A stretch of DNA of 45,865 nucleotides from Myxococcales bacterium (GTDB lineage Bacteria > Myxococcota_A > Polyangia > Polyangiales > Polyangiaceae): the NCBI GenBank assembly GCA_013297655.1, contig JAAFHV010000043.1, positions 1-45,865 on the forward strand, given 5' to 3'. Below are positions 8,074 to 22,847 of the stretch, piece by piece; the first letter of the stretch is position 1, and every line of letters starts with the position of its first letter. The translations under genes were made by a program, and so were the position numbers. Under the pieces are notes generated by a model, which worked only from the letters and a program-made list of their open reading frames with translations, ran no database searches and was not told where the DNA came from.

Positions 8074-9456
8074 ATGAAGCATCGTTTTGCCGTGCTCGCC
8101 CTCTCCGGAATTTTGGCCGCGACCGGTGCCTTCGCGCTCGAGGGGCGCGCCGAGGCGTGCGGCGGCTGCTTCGTTCCCGCGGAGGACGCCACCGTCGTGA
8201 CCGACCACCGCATGATCCTCTCGGTGGGCAACAACGAGAGCACGCTCTACGACCAGATTCGTTATCAGGGGTTGCCGACCGAGTTCGCCTGGGTGCTCCC
8301 GATCTCGGGCGAGGCCAAGGTCGGCCTCTCCGCCGACACTCTCTTCAGCACCATCGGTGGCTTCACCCAGACGTCGATCATCGCGCCGCCGCAGAACTGC
8401 CCCGCGCCGACCGACTGCAACAGCGACAACGAAGCGACGAGCGCCTCCGATAGCCGCGGGTTCGCCGATGCCGGCGCCGCGAGCCCGGGCGGCGTGACGG
8501 TGACGAAAGAAGAGAACGTAGGCCCCTACGCGACGGTTCAACTGCAATCGACGGACGCGGAGGCCCTCAACAAGTGGCTCGCGGACAACAAGTTCACGGT
8601 GCCCGACGACGTGAAGCCCGTGATTGCCCAATACGTGAAGGAGAATTTCAATTTCCTCGCGCTCAAGCTCCGTCCCGGCGCGAACGTGCAGGCGATGCGG
8701 CCCGTGCGCGTGACCACGAAAGGGCCCAACGTGGTGCTCCCGCTTCGCATGGTCGCCGCCGGCACCGGGCCTATCGTGGGCATTACGCTCTGGGTCGTGG
8801 GCCAAGGCCGCTACGAGCCGACCAACTTCCCCACCTTCGCCGTCAAAGCCGACGAGCTCCTCTGGGATTGGACCAAGAGCGAGAGCAACTTCAAGGCCCT
8901 CCGCGCCGAGCGCGCCGCTGCAGGTAACAACCGAAGCTGGGAGATCGAGAGCGCGTTCCGCTTGCCCGTGTCGCAGATCACGCTCCCCCTCGAGAACGGC
9001 GGGCGCTTCGGCAACGGTGGAAGCGGCGACTACGCAGAGATCCCCGCCAGCGGAACCGAGCCCGGCAAAACCGTCGCCGAGGTCCGCAAGGAAGACCTCG
9101 ACGTGCTCTTCGGCGGCACGAACCGGCCCGCCGACGTCTTCGTCACCCGCATTCGCACCGACATCGCTCACGCCGCCCTCTCTGAAGATTTGCTCCTCCA
9201 GGCCCCCGCCGATCAAGCCGTCTTCTCCAACATTCGCCAGGTCACGAAGGAGCTCAACGAGCCGCTCTGCCCTGTGTATGTAGGATGCACGCAGACGGGC
9301 ACCGCCCCTCGCAGCGAGGCGATCAGCCGCGCCGCGCAGTCCAACTGCTCCAGCAGCGGCGCCCTTCCGAGCAACGGGTTCGCCGCCGCCGGCCTCGCCT
9401 TCGTCGGTATCGCCGTCGCCAACGCCGCGCGCCGTCGCCGCGTCCGCAAAGCCTGA
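8074..9456 (+). CDS. DUF2330 surface protein with MYXO-CTERM-like tail, copy 2
   Basis: The protein has 460 residues. The ATG at 8074 is preceded by an AAGGA ribosome-binding site. The signal peptide ends at AEA, and the mature protein begins CGGCFVPAEDATVVTDHR, the typical DUF2330 opening. The domain continues to 'NEPLCPVYVGC', after which come a short Ser/Cys segment (SNCSSSG), a hydrophobic helix (GFAAAGLAFVGIAVANAA) and RRRRVRK. Such a Cys-helix-Arg tail resembles MYXO-CTERM, which is thought to be processed by myxosortases for surface display; that is established for the signal, inferred for this protein. The function of DUF2330 is unknown. Long stretches, for example around 8493-8640, are nearly identical in DNA to copy 1, implying recent duplication or gene conversion. 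Confidence 0.9.
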   Translation: MKHRFAVLALSGILAATGAFALEGRAEACGGCFVPAEDATVVTDHRMILSVGNNESTLYDQIRYQGLPTEFAWVLPISGEAKVGLSADTLFSTIGGFTQTSIIAPPQNCPAPTDCNSDNEATSASDSRGFADAGAASPGGVTVTKEENVGPYATVQLQSTDAEALNKWLADNKFTVPDDVKPVIAQYVKENFNFLALKLRPGANVQAMRPVRVTTKGPNVVLPLRMVAAGTGPIVGITLWVVGQGRYEPTNFPTFAVKADELLWDWTKSESNFKALRAERAAAGNNRSWEIESAFRLPVSQITLPLENGGRFGNGGSGDYAEIPASGTEPGKTVAEVRKEDLDVLFGGTNRPADVFVTRIRTDIAHAALSEDLLLQAPADQAVFSNIRQVTKELNEPLCPVYVGCTQTGTAPRSEAISRAAQSNCSSSGALPSNGFAAAGLAFVGIAVANAARRRRVRKA

Positions 9457-9502: not shown

Positions 9503-10900
9503 ATGAAGCATCGCACGTCCGTCTTGGCGCTCTCGGGAATGGTGGCCGCCCTCGGCCTCGTGGCTTCGGAGCGCCCGGCTTCGGCTTGCGGAGGGTGCTT
9601 CGTGCCTCCGGAGTCGAACACCGTGGTCACCGACCACCGCATGCTGCTCTCCGTGGGTCAGGGGCAGTCCACCCTTTACGATCAGATTCGATACCAAGGC
9701 TCGCCCGAGTCGTTCGCGTGGGTACTTCCCATTTCGGGCGAGGCAGAGGTGGGGCTCTCCGCGGACACCGTGTTCTCCGTGCTCGACTCGCTCACCCAGG
9801 TGGGCGTCGTCGCGCCGCCGCGGAACTGCCCTCCCGCTCGCGACTGCGACTCACGCAGCTTTGGGACTCCTTCGTCTCCGAACGCAGGAAGCGCCTCTCC
9901 CGAAGACGGCGTCACGGTCACCAAACAGGAGGTGATTGGCCCCTACGAGACGGTGCAGCTCCAGGCGACCAACCCCGAAGCGCTGAACCAGTGGCTCGCG
10001 ACGAACCGGTTCACCGTGCCGGACGACGTGAAGCCCGTCGTCGCGCAGTACGTCCGCGAGAGCTTCAATTTCCTCGCGATGAAGCTCATCCCCGGCGCCT
10101 CGGTGCAGGCGATGCGTCCGGTGCGTGTCACCACCCGCGGCGCTTCGGTCACGTTGCCGCTCCGCATGGTCGCCGCCGGCACCGGCGCGACGGTGGGCAT
10201 CTCGCTCTGGGTCCTCGGTCAGGGCCGCTACGAGCCGCAAAACTTCCCCGCGTTCGTGATCAAACAAGAAGAGCTCGCCTGGGATTGGAACGCCAATCAG
10301 TCGAACTACAAGACCATCCGCGAAGAGCGCACGCGCGCCTCGAATGGCCGCGCGTGGGAGCTCGAGTCGAGCCTCGCCCTCCCCACAGAGCAGATCGACA
10401 ACGGCGTTCGTAACGGCGGCTTCGTGGGCAGGCCCGGCCCGCAGCCCACCACCCCCGGCGACGACTACGCCGCGATCCCGGCCGCGAACGGAAACCCCGG
10501 AAAAACAGCCGCAGAAGTGCGCGACGAAGATCTCGGGATCTTGCTCGGGCGCGTGATCTCCGGAGCCCAGATCCGCGTCACGCGCATGCGCGCCGACCTG
10601 AACCACGCCGCGCTCTCGGAGGACTTGCTCCTCACCGCGCCGGCCGACCAAGCGCTCCTCGGCAACACCCGCCAAGTCACGCGTGAGCTGAACGAGCCGC
10701 TCTGTCCGGTCTTCAGCGGATGCGACCAAGTGGGGCAGGCGCCGCGCAGCGAAGCGGCAGCGCAGGCTTCCGGTGGCTCCTCGTCCGCCTCGAGCTGCTC
10801 GACGGGCAACACGAATTTGGCCTCCGGTGGCCTCCTCGGCGGCGCGTTCGTGGTCCTCGGCCTCGCGTTCGTGCGCTCGCGCCGCGAAAAACGAGCCTGA
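9503..10900 (+). CDS. DUF2330 surface protein with MYXO-CTERM-like tail, copy 3
   Basis: The protein has 465 residues. The ATG at 9503 has AAAGGAA just upstream and lies 46 bp after copy 2. The signal peptide (MKHRTSVLALSG) strongly resembles that of copy 2. The mature start is CGGCFVPPESNTVVTDHR. The domain follows the same order as copies 1 and 2 but is clearly more diverged (for example TLPLRMVAAGTGATVGISLW against VLPLRMVAAGTGPIVGITLW), so it is the older paralogue. A 10-residue Pro/Gly insert (PGPQPTTPGD) precedes the D-Y-A-A-I-P segment. The tail has a Ser-rich Cys segment (SSASSCSTG), a hydrophobic helix and a RSRREKR end, again MYXO-CTERM-like. The spacing suggests one transcript for the array. 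Confidence 0.9.
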   Translation: MKHRTSVLALSGMVAALGLVASERPASACGGCFVPPESNTVVTDHRMLLSVGQGQSTLYDQIRYQGSPESFAWVLPISGEAEVGLSADTVFSVLDSLTQVGVVAPPRNCPPARDCDSRSFGTPSSPNAGSASPEDGVTVTKQEVIGPYETVQLQATNPEALNQWLATNRFTVPDDVKPVVAQYVRESFNFLAMKLIPGASVQAMRPVRVTTRGASVTLPLRMVAAGTGATVGISLWVLGQGRYEPQNFPAFVIKQEELAWDWNANQSNYKTIREERTRASNGRAWELESSLALPTEQIDNGVRNGGFVGRPGPQPTTPGDDYAAIPAANGNPGKTAAEVRDEDLGILLGRVISGAQIRVTRMRADLNHAALSEDLLLTAPADQALLGNTRQVTRELNEPLCPVFSGCDQVGQAPRSEAAAQASGGSSSASSCSTGNTNLASGGLLGGAFVVLGLAFVRSRREKRA

Positions 10901-13751: not shown

Positions 13752-14570
13752 ATGGCCAAGAAGTCTCGACGGAACACCACCAAACGCCAACGTAGCGAGC
13801 GGCGCTTCTTGCCGCAGAGCGCCTCCAATCCTTGGCTCGTCCGTGCTCCTGGCGCGATCGGGGCGATGGGCATCGGCGCGGGCGTTTGGGGCTATTTTTA
13901 CGGCCACTTCGTCCCCGACGAGGCGCACCCGGTGCAGGGCACGGCCTACAACATTCCGCTCTTCGTGCTCGCGGGCGGCGCGGTGCTCATGGCGGCCGCG
14001 ATTTGGTTCGGCACCTCGGGTGAGGCGGCGATCCGCGTCGGCGATCCTGGCATCTCGGTCGAGAAGGGCGACATTCGCCGCATGCCGTGGTGGAAGGTGA
14101 AGTCGATCTCGTTCGACGGGCCCTCCGAGTCGCTCGTCGTGACTGGCAAAGACGAGGCCGACGCCGACTTCTCGTTCCGCGTCCGTGGTCGCGCGCACCC
14201 GCTCGCCGTCGCGTGGATCGTGAAAGAGGCGGAGGCGCGGATCCCCAAGAAGCTCAACGTCGACGACGCCGATCTCGCGCGCATCGGCGAGGCTCAAGAG
14301 GGCGGAACCAAGCTCGTCTTGGAGCCGCTCCAAGTCGTCGGCCGAAGGTGCGCCGCGACGAAGAAGCTCATCGCCTACGAGCCCGAGGGCGTGGTGTGCC
14401 CGGCGTGCGAGCGCGTCTACCACAAGGCGAGCGTCCCTCGAAAATGCGCCTGCGGGAGCGAGTTCTCGAAGAGCCAGGTGAGCGCCGCGGAAGCCGACGA
14501 CGACGTCGACGAGCCCGTCCGCGTCGCGGAAGCCGACGACGAGAAGTCCGACGCCAGCGCCGAGGCGTGA
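13752..14570 (+). CDS. Membrane protein with C-terminal zinc ribbon, unknown function
   Basis: The protein has 272 residues and starts 9 bp after ruvA, suggesting an operon. The N-terminus is strongly basic (MAKKSRRNTTKRQRSERR). Two transmembrane helices follow (about residues 30-55 and 70-92). A PH-like beta-rich cytoplasmic segment then reads 'GDPGISVEKGDIRRMPWWKVKSISFDG'; the WW-K-V-x-S-I pattern resembles the start of bacterial PH domains. Near the end, Cys216-x2-Cys219 and Cys232-x-Cys234 form a likely zinc ribbon (CPACERVYH...RKCACG). The tail is highly acidic and carries a short repeat (AEADD). No function is assigned. The order basic N-terminus, two helices, PH-like domain, zinc ribbon suggests a membrane scaffold that senses or binds a protein or lipid partner. 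Confidence 0.75.
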   Translation: MAKKSRRNTTKRQRSERRFLPQSASNPWLVRAPGAIGAMGIGAGVWGYFYGHFVPDEAHPVQGTAYNIPLFVLAGGAVLMAAAIWFGTSGEAAIRVGDPGISVEKGDIRRMPWWKVKSISFDGPSESLVVTGKDEADADFSFRVRGRAHPLAVAWIVKEAEARIPKKLNVDDADLARIGEAQEGGTKLVLEPLQVVGRRCAATKKLIAYEPEGVVCPACERVYHKASVPRKCACGSEFSKSQVSAAEADDDVDEPVRVAEADDEKSDASAEA

Positions 14571-14646: not shown

Positions 14647-15027
14647 ATGAGCGCGAGCGAGAAGCCACTCTTGGCGCGAGGGCAGGGCGCGAGCCCCGGG
14701 ATCGCGACCGGTAAAATCGTGTTCGTATCCGACGAAGCGGTGAAGCTCGCTGCGGCGGGCGAGAGCGTGATCCTCGTCCGTATCGAGACCGAAGCGGAGG
14801 ACACCCCCGGCCTCCGCGCCGCCGTCGGCATCGTGACCACCCGCGGCGGCCTCACGTCCGACGCCGCGATCATCGCGCGAAGCCTCGGCAAGCCGTGCAT
14901 CGCCGGCTGCACCACGGTGAGTGTAAACTACAGCGAAGAGAAGCTCGTCATTCGCGGCGGGCCCACCCTCGCGAAGCACCACGTCATCACGATCGACGGT
15001 GCTCGTGGTCAGATCCACGAAGGCTGA
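14647..15027 (+). CDS. Stand-alone PEP-utiliser mobile domain with Asp in place of the phospho-His
   Basis: The protein has 126 residues. It aligns by eye with the swivelling phosphohistidine domain of pyruvate phosphate dikinase and related PEP-utilising enzymes: GASPGIATGKIVF, ILVRIETEAED, then TTRGGLTSDAAIIARSLGKPCIAGC. In those enzymes the motif is T-x-G-G-x-[TL]-[SC]-H-A-A, with the His carrying the phosphate. Here position 72 is Asp (codon gac at 14860-14862). No ATP-grasp or PEP/pyruvate barrel domain is fused or encoded nearby, so it cannot be a normal catalytic subunit. It could be a regulatory or phospho-mimic relic, or a subunit acting with a distant partner. The gene lies 76 bp downstream of the membrane/zinc-ribbon gene. 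Confidence 0.85.
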   Translation: MSASEKPLLARGQGASPGIATGKIVFVSDEAVKLAAAGESVILVRIETEAEDTPGLRAAVGIVTTRGGLTSDAAIIARSLGKPCIAGCTTVSVNYSEEKLVIRGGPTLAKHHVITIDGARGQIHEG

Positions 15028-15143: not shown

Positions 15144-16019
15144 ATGACGACGAAGACGGTGGCGGTGCTCGGCGCGGGGACGATGGGTCGCGGGATCGCG
15201 CAGATTTGCGCGCAAAAGGGGCATCTCACGCGTCTCGCCGACGTGGACGAGGGCCGCGCGAAGGGGGCCCTCGCCGACATTTCGAAGACGCTCGAGAGGC
15301 TCGTCGAGAAGGGAAAGATCACGGGCGACCAGCGTCACGCGACGATGTCGAACCTCTCTGTCGCGCCGACGGCGAAGCTCGCGTGCGAGGGCGCGGAGGT
15401 GATCGTGGAGGCCGTGTTCGAGAGCATGGCGGTGAAGGTGGAGCTCTTGTCCGAGGTGATCCCGGTCGCGGAGAAGTACGCCATCGTCGCGAGCAACACT
15501 TCGTCGCTCTCGATCACGGAGCTAGGCGCGCGTCTAGGGGTCGCCGAGCGCACGGTAGGCCTCCACTTTTTCAACCCGGTACCCGTAATGGAGCTCGCGG
15601 AGGTCGTGCGCGGGCTAAGCACCTCGGAGAAGACGGTGGAGCTCACGGTCGCCTTCGCGAAGGAGCTCGGCAAGACCCCGATCGTCGTCAACGACATGCC
15701 AGGCTTCGCCACGAGCCGCCTCGGCGTCATCCTCGGAGCCGAGGCGATGCGCATGCTCGAGCAAGGCGTCGCGAGCGCCCAAGACATCGACCGAGGCATG
15801 GAGCTCGGCTACCGCCACCCCATGGGCCCCCTTAAGCTCACCGATCTCGTCGGCCTCGACGTCCGCCTAGCGATCCTCGAGCACCTCCACCGCGAAATCG
15901 GCGAGCAATTCCGCCCCCCCGCGCTCCTCCGTCAAATGGTCCGCGCCGGCAAGCTAGGCAAAAAAACCGGCCAAGGCTTCTACCTCTGGGAAAACGGCGA
16001 ACCCAAACCCCACCCCTAA
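15144..16019 (+). CDS. 3-hydroxyacyl-CoA (3-hydroxybutyryl-CoA) dehydrogenase
   Basis: The protein has 291 residues, the normal length for the single-function enzyme. The ATG at 15144 has GGAGGAA upstream. The NAD-binding Rossmann motif GAGTMG is at residues 10-15. Substrate and catalytic residues are visible in SNTSSLSIT and in HFFNPVPVMELAEV (catalytic His and Glu). The C-terminal domain holds DMPGFATSRLGV and the signature ELGYRHPMGPLKLTDLVGLD. It oxidises (S)-3-hydroxyacyl-CoA to 3-ketoacyl-CoA with NAD(P), in beta-oxidation or in butanoyl-CoA or polyhydroxybutyrate metabolism. The direction cannot be told from sequence. The usual Asn in PGF-x-x-N-R is Ser here, a variant that I believe occurs in a recognised subgroup. 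Confidence 0.92.
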   Translation: MTTKTVAVLGAGTMGRGIAQICAQKGHLTRLADVDEGRAKGALADISKTLERLVEKGKITGDQRHATMSNLSVAPTAKLACEGAEVIVEAVFESMAVKVELLSEVIPVAEKYAIVASNTSSLSITELGARLGVAERTVGLHFFNPVPVMELAEVVRGLSTSEKTVELTVAFAKELGKTPIVVNDMPGFATSRLGVILGAEAMRMLEQGVASAQDIDRGMELGYRHPMGPLKLTDLVGLDVRLAILEHLHREIGEQFRPPALLRQMVRAGKLGKKTGQGFYLWENGEPKPHP

Positions 16020-16036
16020 CCGAGTGCCCCGAGCAA

Positions 16037-16126
16037 GGGCGGGTCTCCGAGCCCAAGCGGGTCTCCGAGCCCAAGCGGGTCTCCGAGCGAGGGCGGGTCT
16101 CCGAGCGAGGGCGGGTCTCCGAGCCC
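16037..16126. repeat. 18-bp tandem repeat, five units
   Basis: Five consecutive 18-bp units carry the core gcgggtctccgag: 16037-16054, 16055-16072, 16073-16090, 16091-16108 and 16109-16126. Unit ends alternate between 'ccc' and 'cga', and unit starts between 'ggg' and 'aag', so at least four sequence variants are present. The array follows the dehydrogenase stop codon by 17 bp. On the minus strand it reads as an R-R-P-A-[LW]-A repeat, but no gene call is justified. It is likely a non-coding VNTR. Confidence 0.85.
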
Positions 16127-16141
16127 GAGCCAACGAACCCA

Positions 16142-16327
16142 TGAAGGTAGGGCGATTCGGGGCGAGACCGAGCTCCAGCTAGGAGGCCGCGCGGAGCGTA
16201 CTCCTGTACGTGAGCACGGCCGACGACGCTGGAGCGAAGGTATCGCCCCGAAGCGCCCTGCCTTCAGTACGTGAGCACGGCCGACGACGCTGGAGCGAAG
16301 GTATCGCCCCGAAGCGCCCTGCCTTCA
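16142..16327. repeat. Large palindromic REP-like element with duplicated right half
   Basis: The segment 16142-16266 is one long imperfect palindrome. Its ends read tgaaggtagggcg and cgccctgccttca, the arms contain ttcggggcga and tcgccccgaa, and ctccagc and gctggag, and the centre is gtac-tcct-gtac. The right half, 16206-16266, is repeated exactly once more at 16267-16327 with a 61-bp period. The element lies between convergent genes, touching the SUKH stop codon at 16330. It looks like a dispersed palindromic repeat of the REP/MITE kind. No other copy is visible in this window. Confidence 0.75.
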
Positions 16328-17935: not shown

Positions 17936-18320
17936 CGTAAGAGCTTACTCGGTTTCTCGCGTGCACGTCATTGGCGGGAGCTTCCTGAATTCCGCGTGAG
18001 AAAGAAATCGCCTGGTCTCGGCAAAGAAGGCGTCCTTGACGCCCTCCCGCGGCCAAGGCTAAGTCACGCCGCCCCGCGAACGCGCGTGGGTTGGTTTTGG
18101 TGCCCGCTCTTCCACGGGAGAGGGCGGGCGCGAGGGGCGAAGGCGACAACCTCCGCACGGGGCGCGCGAGTCAATGCTCTAACGGCACCGGTTCCAGCAG
18201 CGGCACGATAACTTCAACTGCTGGAAAAGATTCACAATAGTTCCTGGAATACAGTTTGCTAGAGAGCACGTGGTCGTTTCGGGCAATCGGAACCCTGCGT
18301 GTTTGTTCAAGGAGGTCGGG
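17936..18320. other. Divergent intergenic region upstream of the Met-zincin gene
   Basis: No gene is supported in these 385 bp. A G/C-rich imperfect hairpin lies around 18104-18131 (gcccgctcttcc against ggagagggcgggc). The last 130 bp are noticeably richer in A/T than the surroundings and contain the inverted repeat at 18192-18226, a palindrome-like ttcctggaa at 18241-18249 and a strong ribosome-binding site (AAGGAGGT) just before the ATG at 18321. The promoter for the protease most likely lies here. I could not fix a -35/-10 pair. Confidence 0.5.
18192..18226. promoter_or_regulatory. 9-bp inverted repeat upstream of the protease gene
   Basis: The arms ttccagcag (18192-18200) and ctgctggaa (18218-18226) are perfect inverted copies with a 17-bp spacer, about 95 bp before the start codon. 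A third ctggaa half-site lies at 18244-18249. The spacing would suit a dimeric regulator binding two turns apart, or a hairpin in the leader RNA. Confidence 0.4.
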
Positions 18321-21300
18321 ATGCAATCGAGGTGGAAACGACGACTCGGGTTGGGGGCCCTCGCGGCCACTCTTGCCTGGGCGTCCGTTGGCTGCGCTGG
18401 CGAGCGTGAGCCGATAAACAGAGTTCAAGCCAACGCGATGCCGAAGAGCTTCTTCATCGGCGCCATCGCGGACAACAACGACGACCCCGAGTTCTACATG
18501 CGGAACACGGTCGTCGACGTTCCGTACGGTGCTGGGCAGGACGGCCTCTTCACGGCCACCTACGCGCAACCGACGAACCGTATCAAATGGGAAGTTCAAG
18601 AGCGCGCGCTCATCGCGCGTTCGACCTTCGAGCGCATCCAAGACAGCGACAACAAAGGCACCCGTCGTACCAACGACGGCCAAGTCGTCGCCATGTTCGC
18701 GATCGAGAGCCACTTCGACATCCGCCGCGACTACAACCCGGGCACGGGCGAAGAGTCGAACACGATCGTCGAGAACGCGGGCGACCGTCCCTGGTACCAG
18801 CGCGAGTACATTCGCGTCGACTGGTCCAAGAACATGGTCACCGACGGCTACGAGGTCGACACGCTCTCGCAGGTCGGTCTCTACGGCGGCGTGAAGTTCA
18901 GCCCGCTCGAGTACAAAGTCGAAGATCCGAACGACCCGAACGCCCCCGCGTTCGCGCCGGAAGAAGGCTACTTCGACGTCGCCACCAAGGCGTTCGCCGT
19001 CCCCGGCCTCATCAACACGCCCTGGGGCGAGTACCCCGCGTGTTGGTTCTACGGCGCCCCCGCCTCGAACTGCAACCCGACCGAGCTCACCCTCCGTCTC
19101 TCGTTCAAGAAGGTCACCGAGACCGACTACGAGCCGAGCGACTGGGACGGCACCCGCATGGACGCGTTCGGCGCGTTCTACGCGAGCCGCTACGGCTACG
19201 AGCGCAACTACGGCATCCTCGACCAGCAGTGGCATCGCCTCGCGGCGAAGTACAACATGTTCGAGCGCAGCCACATCTCGTCCGGCCAGGGCGAGAACGA
19301 GGTCTTCGCCCAGTGCAACGTCGACTTCTGGCGTGACAAGAACGGCGACGTCCAGAAGTTCAAGACGAACGGCTCGGGCTTCGCGACTGACGCGAAGACG
19401 GGCCTCCCGATCCCGGACGCGAACGGCAAGCCCCTCCCGGGCAGCTCCGTCGCCGCCGGCCAGGCGCGTAACGCGAACCGCTGGAAGATCCTCGACCAGA
19501 ACGAGAACAAGACCGACGACGAGTGCGAGTTCAAAGACTCGAGCGGCAACCTTCTCCACGCCGGCTCGCGCTGCGACACCCTCGCGCGCCGCTGTACGCT
19601 TCCGCTCCACGAGCGCAAGACGAAGACCATCCCCTGGTACTACGGTGGTGACGGCCCGGCCGACCTCTACCCCTCGACGGCCGCGGCCACCGAGCAGTGG
19701 AACGTCGCCGCCAAGGTCGCTCTCCAAGCGGGCGCCAAGGTCGACGCCGAGCGCGTCGGTATCACCGACACGTCGAAGTTCATCACGGACGAGGCCGCGA
19801 TCGCCAAGCGCGAAGGCGCCGCGAAAGACGTGACTGACGTGTTCGTGCTCTGCCACAGCCCGGTCCTCGAAGGGGACCACACGGCGTGCGGCAAGCCCGG
19901 CACCATCGCCCGCGTCGGCGACCTCCGCTACAACTCGGTCAACATCATCAACACGCCGCAAGACCCGAGCCCCTGGGGCATCATGGTCGACGGCGACGAC
20001 CCCCTCACCGGCGAGAAGGTCAACACCTCCGTCAACGAGTGGGGACACATCCTCGACATCATCAGCCAGAGCACCGCGGACTACATCCGCTGGCTCAACG
20101 GTGAAGTCTCGGACGAAGCGGTCAGCGGCGGGCAGTACATGCTCGACTGGACCACCGGTGCGAAGTTCGCCGCCAAGGCGACCGAGACCAAGGTCCTCTC
20201 CGAGAAGGAAGTCCAGACTCGCCTCGCTTCGGTGCTCTCGGCCGACGGCAACGGCAAGTTCTACCCGCGCAAGGTCCTCACCCGTGACGAGCAACTGCCG
20301 ATGCAGCAGATGCTCGACAAGCTGAAGGCCCAGGGCCAGGCTCGCAAGAAGTCCGGTATCGCCCTCGACGAGAACACCCAAATCGAAGCTCGCCGCAAGC
20401 AGCTCGTCGGGTCGAAGTTCGAGGCGATGCTCGCGACCAAAGAGATGCAGGTCATGGCTGGTGTTCCCGCGCGGAACGCTGGCGAGATGGCCCTCACCGA
20501 CGACAAGACCCTCGCGAAGTTCTCGCCGCTCCGTGGCCAGAACCCGCAGCTCCGTCGCTGGCTGGACAACATCAAGAACCAGCACGCTCACGAGCACACC
20601 ACGTGCACCGTCGAGGCTCCCCTCCCGGACGCGACCGGCATCATCGGCCTCGCGCGCCAGGCGAAGACCCTCTACCCGCTCCCCGCTTCGGACGACGCGG
20701 ACTTCGCGGCCAAGAAGCAGAAGCGCGACCGCGACCTGTTCCAGTGGATCCGCGAGCAGTTCCACATCTCGGTTATCCTCCACGAGATGGGCCACTCGAT
20801 GGGCCTCCGCCACAACTTCACGGGCAACTTCGACGCCCTGAACTTCCACACGCAGTACTGGCAGCTCCGTACCCGCAACGGTCAGGAAAAGGCTTGTACT
20901 CCGGAGCCGCAAGGCAGCCCTGGCGCTCCCCGCACCTTCAAGCCGCACACCAACGGCGAAGATTGTGTCGGCGGCCGCTGGTTCGACCCGATCACCGAGA
21001 CCGAGCAGAACGGCATCCTGCCGCGCTGGGGCTCCTCGACCGTCATGGACTACCCGGGTGACTACTCGCAGGACATGAACGGCCTCGGCAAGTACGACAA
21101 GGCGTGGATGCGCTTCATGTACGCCGATGTCGTCGACGTCGACACCGACTCGAACGGCGGCAAGAAGGTTGGTTACTACCCCTTCATGGCCGACCGTAAC
21201 AGCGGTGGCGTTCTCGGTCCGTTCTTCATGCCGTCGTACTGGAAGTTCAACGACATGTTCAACCTCGTAGGCGACTGCGAGGGAGGCGACCCCAAGGATC

Positions 21301-22847
21301 CGCTTTCGGCCAAGTGCACGGGCGTCAAGCTCGACTACCGCAAGCTCTACGACATGCAGGACGCCTCGGGCTCGGTTCGCACCGAGAGCTTCGGCGCGGC
21401 CTCCTGGTCGGGTAACTTCAACAAGTCGGAAGACGGCTACGCCCGTCACCCGTACATGTTCAGCTCGGACGAGTTCGCGGACGGCGGCAACGTCTCCGTC
21501 TACCGTCACGACGCTGGCGCCGACCTCTACGAGCAGTCGCAGTACTTCATCAACTCGTACGAGAACCGCTACATCTGGGACAACTTCCGTCGTAACCGCG
21601 TGACGTTCAACGTCGGCGGCACGGTCAACCGGACGCTCTCCCGTTACTTCGACAAGATGACGTCGACGACCAAGGCCATGGGCCTCATCCTCGACGGCAG
21701 CTCGAGCGACGGCCAGTACCTCGGTCACGAGGAGCTCCTCCTCACGCACGCACTCTCGTCGTCGATGGGCTTCGAGGAGTTCATCAAGGTCCTCACCCGA
21801 CCCGAGCCCGGCGCGTACCGCTTCTCGCGGAGCCGCGACCTCTCGGACACCTGCACCACGAAGAGCTACGCCGAAGTCTCGGAGTACTACGCCGACGACC
21901 TCTGCTCCGCTGCGAGCGCCACCACCCCCCCCGCGTTCACCCTCAAGGTGGGCCAGGGCGTCCGCTACCTGCACAACGAGTACGACTACTCGAAGGGCTA
22001 CGAGTGGAGCGACTACCTGCGCTGGGTCGGCTCGTACTACGAGAAGATCTACGTCACGTACTTCCTCACCGAGGCGTACAACAACTTCTTGCAGAACAGC
22101 CGCGACGACTACGTCGATGGTCGTGACCGCAACATCAACTACGCGAAGATCTACCCCGAGCAGATGCGCCGCCTCACGGCCAGCCTCCTGCAGAACGACT
22201 CGACGCTCTACGCGCCGTACGTCCTGCCGCAGACTGCCGGCTTCGCGACCTCCTCGGATCCGGTTCAGTGGCTCCCGCTCGACCGCTTCACGCAGGCCGA
22301 CCCCGGCACTGTTTCGCCCACCTACCCCGCCGGCGCGGTTCGCGTGAACCCGCTCGTTGGTTGGGAGCAGCAGTTCCCCGCGATCATGTTCAACTACATC
22401 TACGCGTCTACGACGATGACGATGGACCAGAACAACCAGATGCGCATCTGGTACCCGGACAGCGACGGAAACGTCCCCGTCCCGGTCGATCAGCAGGTTC
22501 GCTACTCGGATCCCATCTCGGGCATCCTCTACGCAGCTCGCAGCTACGGCCGCGAGACCATCGCGGGCCGCCAGGTCCAGCGTGCAACCGGCTCCCGTAT
22601 GCTGCAGTACGCGAACGACTTCGCGACCTCGGCCTTCGTGATCCTCAGCACGGACCCCGTCACGGGCGTGCACACCTACCAGCGAGCTGGCGTTGCCAAC
22701 GAGCCGGTGTGCAAGACCTTCGCCGGTGTCGACGACCAGGACATCGCGTGCGCGAACGCCAAGAAGCGCATCAAGCTCTTCTCGTCGAACCTCGACACGA
22801 TGCGCGAAATCGCGCTCTACGTTCAGAGCCCCGTTTCGGCTCAGTAA
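18321..22847 (+). CDS. Met-zincin (DUF4953/DUF5117-type) zinc metalloprotease, lipoprotein
   Basis: The protein has 1508 residues. The ATG at 18321 follows AAGGAGGT and opens a signal peptide ending at the lipobox S-V-G-C. The active site H-E-M-G-H-S-M-G-L-R-H-N is at about residue 821 (H-E-x-x-H-x-x-G-x-x-H, three zinc ligands and the general base Glu). A Met-turn, S-T-V-M-D-Y-P, follows at about 909, so it is a metzincin-like enzyme. The order and 'SVMDY' signature match the large secreted bacterial proteases annotated as DUF4953/DUF5117. The roughly 820-residue N-terminal part and 600-residue C-terminal part contain no domain I can name. Codon use is unusually uniform (AAG, TTC, AAC, GGC and CTC almost throughout), as in highly expressed genes. 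The gene stands alone and ends in a strong terminator. Confidence 0.9.
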   Translation: MQSRWKRRLGLGALAATLAWASVGCAGEREPINRVQANAMPKSFFIGAIADNNDDPEFYMRNTVVDVPYGAGQDGLFTATYAQPTNRIKWEVQERALIARSTFERIQDSDNKGTRRTNDGQVVAMFAIESHFDIRRDYNPGTGEESNTIVENAGDRPWYQREYIRVDWSKNMVTDGYEVDTLSQVGLYGGVKFSPLEYKVEDPNDPNAPAFAPEEGYFDVATKAFAVPGLINTPWGEYPACWFYGAPASNCNPTELTLRLSFKKVTETDYEPSDWDGTRMDAFGAFYASRYGYERNYGILDQQWHRLAAKYNMFERSHISSGQGENEVFAQCNVDFWRDKNGDVQKFKTNGSGFATDAKTGLPIPDANGKPLPGSSVAAGQARNANRWKILDQNENKTDDECEFKDSSGNLLHAGSRCDTLARRCTLPLHERKTKTIPWYYGGDGPADLYPSTAAATEQWNVAAKVALQAGAKVDAERVGITDTSKFITDEAAIAKREGAAKDVTDVFVLCHSPVLEGDHTACGKPGTIARVGDLRYNSVNIINTPQDPSPWGIMVDGDDPLTGEKVNTSVNEWGHILDIISQSTADYIRWLNGEVSDEAVSGGQYMLDWTTGAKFAAKATETKVLSEKEVQTRLASVLSADGNGKFYPRKVLTRDEQLPMQQMLDKLKAQGQARKKSGIALDENTQIEARRKQLVGSKFEAMLATKEMQVMAGVPARNAGEMALTDDKTLAKFSPLRGQNPQLRRWLDNIKNQHAHEHTTCTVEAPLPDATGIIGLARQAKTLYPLPASDDADFAAKKQKRDRDLFQWIREQFHISVILHEMGHSMGLRHNFTGNFDALNFHTQYWQLRTRNGQEKACTPEPQGSPGAPRTFKPHTNGEDCVGGRWFDPITETEQNGILPRWGSSTVMDYPGDYSQDMNGLGKYDKAWMRFMYADVVDVDTDSNGGKKVGYYPFMADRNSGGVLGPFFMPSYWKFNDMFNLVGDCEGGDPKDPLSAKCTGVKLDYRKLYDMQDASGSVRTESFGAASWSGNFNKSEDGYARHPYMFSSDEFADGGNVSVYRHDAGADLYEQSQYFINSYENRYIWDNFRRNRVTFNVGGTVNRTLSRYFDKMTSTTKAMGLILDGSSSDGQYLGHEELLLTHALSSSMGFEEFIKVLTRPEPGAYRFSRSRDLSDTCTTKSYAEVSEYYADDLCSAASATTPPAFTLKVGQGVRYLHNEYDYSKGYEWSDYLRWVGSYYEKIYVTYFLTEAYNNFLQNSRDDYVDGRDRNINYAKIYPEQMRRLTASLLQNDSTLYAPYVLPQTAGFATSSDPVQWLPLDRFTQADPGTVSPTYPAGAVRVNPLVGWEQQFPAIMFNYIYASTTMTMDQNNQMRIWYPDSDGNVPVPVDQQVRYSDPISGILYAARSYGRETIAGRQVQRATGSRMLQYANDFATSAFVILSTDPVTGVHTYQRAGVANEPVCKTFAGVDDQDIACANAKKRIKLFSSNLDTMREIALYVQSPVSAQ

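Follow-up and report, generated by a model that had tools for sequence, protein, structure and literature searches.

A stand-alone PPDK-type swivel domain with a fixed His-to-Asp change in Myxococcota, a candidate pseudo-phosphocarrier

A small gene of a group of soil-dwelling, Polyangiales-type Myxococcota encodes a protein that is, by fold and sequence, the central (phosphohistidine) domain of pyruvate phosphate dikinase (PPDK) and nothing more, with Asp72 in place of the catalytic His. The replacement is fixed, as residue 72 is Asp in all 20 distinct stand-alone sequences and His in all 46 PPDK-type swivel domains with which they were compared, and no other column separates the two sets perfectly. 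The swivel protein probably regulates an enzyme system rather than performing PPDK chemistry. The favored, still tentative reading is that it is a pseudo-carrier that resembles phospho-His PPDK and acts on the PPDK/PDRP circuit through PDRP.

The gene and its product

The gene occupies positions 14647 to 15027 on the forward strand of the window (the whole stretch of 45,865 nucleotides that was analyzed), with an ATG at 14647 and a stop codon ending at 15027, and encodes an intact protein of 126 amino acids. Its identification as a stand-alone PPDK-type central domain gene is based on the ORF, PF00391 and TIGR01828 matches, homologues and a structure model. From stop to stop, the frame around the ORF spans just 129 codons, which leaves no room for a hidden flanking catalytic domain. 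Within the motif T-T-R-G-G-L-T-S-D-A-A, the Asp72 codon (gac, 14860 to 14862, forward strand) lies at the position of the phosphate-carrying His, and the Thr70 codon (acg, 14854 to 14856, forward strand) specifies the equivalent of the PPDK Thr targeted by PDRP, which is invariant in all 20 stand-alone and all 46 PPDK-type sequences.

The protein matches PF00391 (PEP-utilizing enzyme, mobile domain) with 75.8 bits, above the cut-off of 23.1, and the phosphate-carrying His that follows the GGxTx motif of this family is absent from the window protein and all 20 stand-alone homologues. Among NCBIfam models, that of PPDK (TIGR01828) matches best, at positions 383 to 503 of 865 only; a score of 126.9 bits against a cut-off of 843 and the absence of nucleotide and PEP domains place the protein outside functional PPDKs. 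A PDB sequence search returned PPDKs and the isolated phosphoryl carrier domain of Clostridium symbiosum PPDK (2fm4), whose own NMR structure indicates that the domain is able to stand alone. In the alignment to C. symbiosum PPDK, Asp72 falls on the catalytic His455 (chain index 454 or 455, depending on the entry) and Thr70 on the Thr two residues before it. The AlphaFold2 model has a mean pLDDT of 94.6 and, in Foldseek, matches PPDK central domains with a TM score of 0.92 and an rmsd of 0.8 to 1.0 Å.

The ORF, the PF00391 match and the C. symbiosum alignment uphold the original prediction of an isolated PEP-utilizer swivelling domain in which Asp replaces His and no catalytic domains are fused. 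“Swivelling domain” was accurate, and “PEP-utilizer” was too generic for what is specifically a PPDK central domain (TIGR01828). With Asp72 at the phospho-His position, the normal phospho-His shuttle is impossible for this protein, as had been predicted for its catalysis.

Upstream lie ruvA and a gene for a 272-amino-acid membrane protein with a C-terminal zinc ribbon (13752 to 14570, forward strand), both read from the sequence; a 3-hydroxyacyl-CoA dehydrogenase gene (15144 to 16019) follows immediately downstream. The first two neighbors had been named correctly and the dehydrogenase had gone unmentioned. A promoter and terminator scan of the swivel locus found nothing. An 18-bp tandem repeat (5.4 copies, 16029 to 16125) and a perfect 61-bp duplication (16206 to 16327) are located behind the dehydrogenase gene. 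Elsewhere, the window carries two tandem DUF2330 (PF10092) paralogues (8074 to 9456 and 9503 to 10900, forward strand) and a gene (18270 to 22847, forward strand) for a 1,525-amino-acid protein that has an HExxH-type motif (HEMGHSMGLRHNF), lacks a Pfam match and is probably a secreted zinc metalloprotease. The genome containing the window is 9.9 Mb in size; of the named relatives in the genome collection, Labilithrix-like MAGs (Myxococcota) are the nearest.

Conservation, distribution and origin

Stand-alone homologues span eight lineages of Polyangiales-type Myxococcota. Among 183 genomes of the order, the carriers are 12 genomes of one genus (g36) together with G106, G107, G109, G110, G111 and G153. 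A motif scan over ~85,000 bacterial and archaeal species, which requires conserved motifs and could be escaped by very divergent members elsewhere, found stand-alone forms in Myxococcota only and added one divergent member (L080); its matches in other phyla were all PPDK-sized proteins with His. Matches on plasmids were all of <60% identity and mostly PPDK where annotated.

Across 14 stand-alone members the mean column identity is 57%, with 22 invariant columns. Around the site, the Gly-rich loop, Arg78 and Lys82 are invariant in the stand-alone family. Ser71 has drifted to Gly in 17 of the 20 sequences. The median dN/dS within g36 is 0.32, a value that is approximate owing to high G+C. These comparisons indicate that the stand-alone proteins are under purifying selection. 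Homologues with His at this site, proposed originally as the sign of a chance mutation, did not appear among the 20 stand-alone sequences, and the Asp common to all of them rules out chance mutation or sequencing error as its source.

The same data make it very improbable that the gene is what is left of a dead ppdK copy, without function. As might be expected of such a remnant, it corresponds to part of a larger enzyme gene, lacks the catalytic residue, is scattered and unlinked in several lineages and is absent from sister genera; nevertheless, all 20 frames are intact over eight lineages, start and stop codons are coupled with those of upstream genes in some, and Asp is fixed without drift. 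Together with the column identity, the invariant columns and a dN/dS of about 0.3, this conservation disfavors a remnant.

Conservation around the site also bears on whether Asp72 itself receives phosphate. PPDK, PEP synthase or Enzyme I might phosphorylate it in trans from PEP or ATP, yielding a labile acyl-phosphate with a role as phosphate sink or as signal. The PTS carrier HPr can still accept phosphate slowly when its His is changed to Asp, and such a chemical role is in line with the invariant loop, Arg78 and Lys82 and with the presence of Asp, not Glu or Asn, in every member. However, the catalytic partners evolved for His, so the reaction would be very slow, and the residue beside the site, Ser71, has drifted; we therefore regard phosphorylation of Asp72 as quite improbable.

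In a tree of stand-alone and PPDK-type domains built without the His/Asp column, and for which no root was inferred, the stand-alone proteins all fall on one side of a branch with 98% bootstrap support, implying one H/D change; few columns and some long branches leave the internal details of this tree uncertain. The swivel gene lies directly behind glyS (glycyl-tRNA synthetase beta subunit, PF02092) in two lineages (L064/L071 of g33, and L080), with overlapping stop and start codons in L064 and L080 (GTGA and ATGA). Many relatives and some Alphaproteobacteria have full-length ppdK close to glyS instead. The swivel gene of these two lineages is found where relatives usually carry ppdK, so its most likely origin is a ppdK copy that was reduced; the simplest history is that a copy behind glyS was cut to its central domain and then relocated. 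The original view that the neighbors give no metabolic context is corrected by the relatives, in which glyS-ppdK is a common order and some homologues lie behind glyS, and by host genomes encoding PPDK and PDRP.

The genomes G180 and G182 carry truncated PPDKs of 553 to 560 amino acids just behind glyS (L039, 4833 to 6494, forward strand; L043, 5600 to 7282, reverse strand). These comprise the ATP-grasp and swivel domains, with TSH intact, and lack the PEP-binding domain, a layout similar to that of mycobacterial VadK. With them, reduction of a ppdK copy linked to glyS is seen a second time.

In the window and in all 12 g36 genomes, the swivel gene instead follows the zinc-ribbon membrane gene, and its start overlaps the zinc-ribbon stop in at least one g36 genome (L059). 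The zinc-ribbon protein has no Pfam or NCBIfam match, and its gene is widespread and single copy (104 of 183 genomes of the order). In the six genomes of other lineages that were checked, the two genes never share a contig. A functional partnership was rejected, since the zinc-ribbon gene is family-wide and unlinked in other lineages; the adjacency is positional. No neighbor of the swivel gene is conserved across all lineages, and the gene was not seen to be linked with either ppdK or the PDRP gene.

These shifting neighborhoods, in which the swivel gene adjoins unrelated genes by lineage (glyS, the zinc-ribbon gene and others), would suit a domain repurposed for another partner, e.g., one acting in translation, replication or signalling, so that PPDK would be no more than its ancestor. 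There are precedents: the swivel domain of Bacillus subtilis pyruvate kinase affects replication initiation (PMC9009071), and in Mycobacterium tuberculosis the PPDK-derived VadK has been turned to the methylcitrate cycle (PMC13400623). Against such repurposing, which we consider unlikely, no adjoining gene is common to all lineages, and in and around the Thr-x-Asp loop the protein has stayed closer to PPDK than a scaffold alone would require.

PPDK and PDRP in the host genomes

Of the 19 carrier genomes, 18 yielded PPDK or a piece of it at a contig end. The genome of the window initially gave the impression of a host without PPDK, which was ruled out by the C-terminal part of PPDK at the very end of contig C393; an assembly gap accounts for the rest. 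Breaks of ppdK at contig ends recur in several MAGs (G000:C393, G107:C77, G118:C102/C103, G122:C11 and G153:C149) and are commoner than we would expect. PDRP (DUF299, PF03618) is likewise present in 18 of 19 carrier genomes, the exception being a 72%-complete MAG. Across the family, the swivel gene is associated with PDRP (18 of 19 carriers versus 51 of 89 genomes; Fisher P of 0.001), but in a phylogenetic control using a tree of 100 genomes, with the zinc-ribbon protein as species marker, there were two well-supported independent pairs, PDRP mostly did not differ within them and none was usable, leaving the association unsupported. Co-occurrence was therefore dropped as functional evidence, because the swivel gene is confined to one clade that carries PDRP almost throughout. 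Sister genera exist with PPDK and PDRP and without the swivel gene, which is thus dispensable for the circuit. The presence of PPDK and PDRP permits a role through PDRP and does not test it.

PDRP, a bifunctional regulatory kinase/phosphorylase, inactivates PPDK and PEPS in an ADP-dependent manner by phosphorylating a Thr close to the catalytic His; its substrate in this inactivation is the catalytically phosphorylated enzyme (PMC2817694). A regulatory role of the Thr equivalent to Thr70 is documented (PMC2817694, PMC9009071), and this Thr, two residues before the catalytic position, is retained in all stand-alone sequences. With Asp in place of His, an intact Thr and a PDRP substrate that is the phosphorylated enzyme, the domain would permanently resemble what PDRP recognizes. 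We propose that a ppdK copy was reduced to its central swivel domain, that the catalytic His changed once to Asp and that the domain was then kept as a separate small protein. The carboxylate of Asp72 beside Thr70 may give it a permanent likeness to catalytically phosphorylated PPDK, leading to recognition by PDRP, which would either phosphorylate Thr70 or have its site occupied. PPDK would thereby be buffered or protected from ADP-dependent inactivation, and pyruvate-PEP interconversion would be tuned to adenylate status. It is conceivable, if somewhat doubtful, that the protein is a natural phospho-His mimic, dedicated to a permanent display of PPDK's phosphorylated-carrier state and thereby serving ADP-dependent PDRP as decoy or sensor.

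In favor of a pseudo-carrier, the comparisons show a PPDK fold, one H/D change after which Asp72 stayed fixed, a Thr70 without variation, and purifying selection, in hosts that encode PPDK and PDRP. Against action through PDRP, Asp imitates phospho-His only roughly. In addition, Thr70 is invariant in PPDK as well, so that its retention may be structural and is no proof of regulation alone. Among the options offered originally, the best fit is with phospho-His mimicry and with regulation; a phosphate-accepting Asp keeps the low probability given above.

The free domain could also act on PPDK directly, without PDRP, by docking on the nucleotide- or PEP/pyruvate-binding domain in place of the enzyme's own swivel and so inhibiting, activating or stabilizing it. 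Many positions shared with PPDK are kept, including Glu51 (Glu or Asp in 20 of 20) and Arg66 (19 of 20), which align with Glu434 and Arg449 of C. symbiosum PPDK, presumably the central-domain partners of Arg219 and Glu271. A PPDK mutant R219E/E271R/S262D is on record (PMC5371819), and the two-component dikinases show a swivel-bearing subunit working in trans (HpeHI, PMC12167813). However, close to the active loop several residues conserved in PPDK have been replaced (His54 by Pro, Met69 by Leu or Ile, and Ser71 by Gly), and a free domain must compete with a tethered swivel at very high local concentration. Direct docking is accordingly considered improbable.

Comparison with known systems and significance

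The closest counterpart of the swivel protein is the PPDK central domain (1kbl, 1vbg and 2fm4), with which it shares the full-domain fold, the Gly-rich loop, ~40% identity and the Thr two residues before the active site. Unlike PPDK, the protein stands alone, has neither a nucleotide- nor a PEP-binding domain and carries Asp for His in all members. Aconitase X has a similarly small, free-standing swivel-fold subunit (weak fold match, 7cnr), which is part of a dehydratase and not a phosphocarrier, and there is no PPDK-like sequence match. The PEPut domain of Bacillus pyruvate kinase (fold match 2e28) is likewise a swivel kept as a regulator without phosphotransfer; in B. subtilis it regulates activity via a Thr-Ser-His (TSH) motif, in which Asp has been used as a phospho-mimic (PMC9009071). 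In contrast to the myxococcal protein, that domain is fused to pyruvate kinase, retains His and belongs to Firmicutes. VadK (Rv1127c), a PPDK-derived truncated histidine kinase of mycobacteria, is also a reduced PPDK copy turned to regulation (PMC13400623). Two-component dikinases of the HpeHI/phenylphosphate synthase type resemble the swivel protein in that their swivel and ATP-grasp domains sit on different polypeptides, whereas their swivel is fused to a substrate-binding domain and its His is essential (PMC12167813); assignment to this type is not supported, as the His is absent and no ATP-grasp neighbor occurs in the window or the relatives examined.

Pseudoenzymes are well known for kinases and phosphatases. 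In the literature searched, which covered few subscription journals, we found no earlier description of such a protein, no pseudo-substrate regulator of dikinases of the phospho-His-mimic type and no free-standing pseudo-phosphohistidine carrier in which a His-to-Asp change is fixed. The Asp72 observation now extends from one protein to a conserved family. Recognition by PDRP is hard to study because its true substrate is a labile phospho-His enzyme, and the swivel protein may offer a ready-made small phospho-His mimic for probing it. If the protein does act on PDRP or PPDK, it would represent decoy-domain regulation of the pyruvate-PEP step in bacteria.
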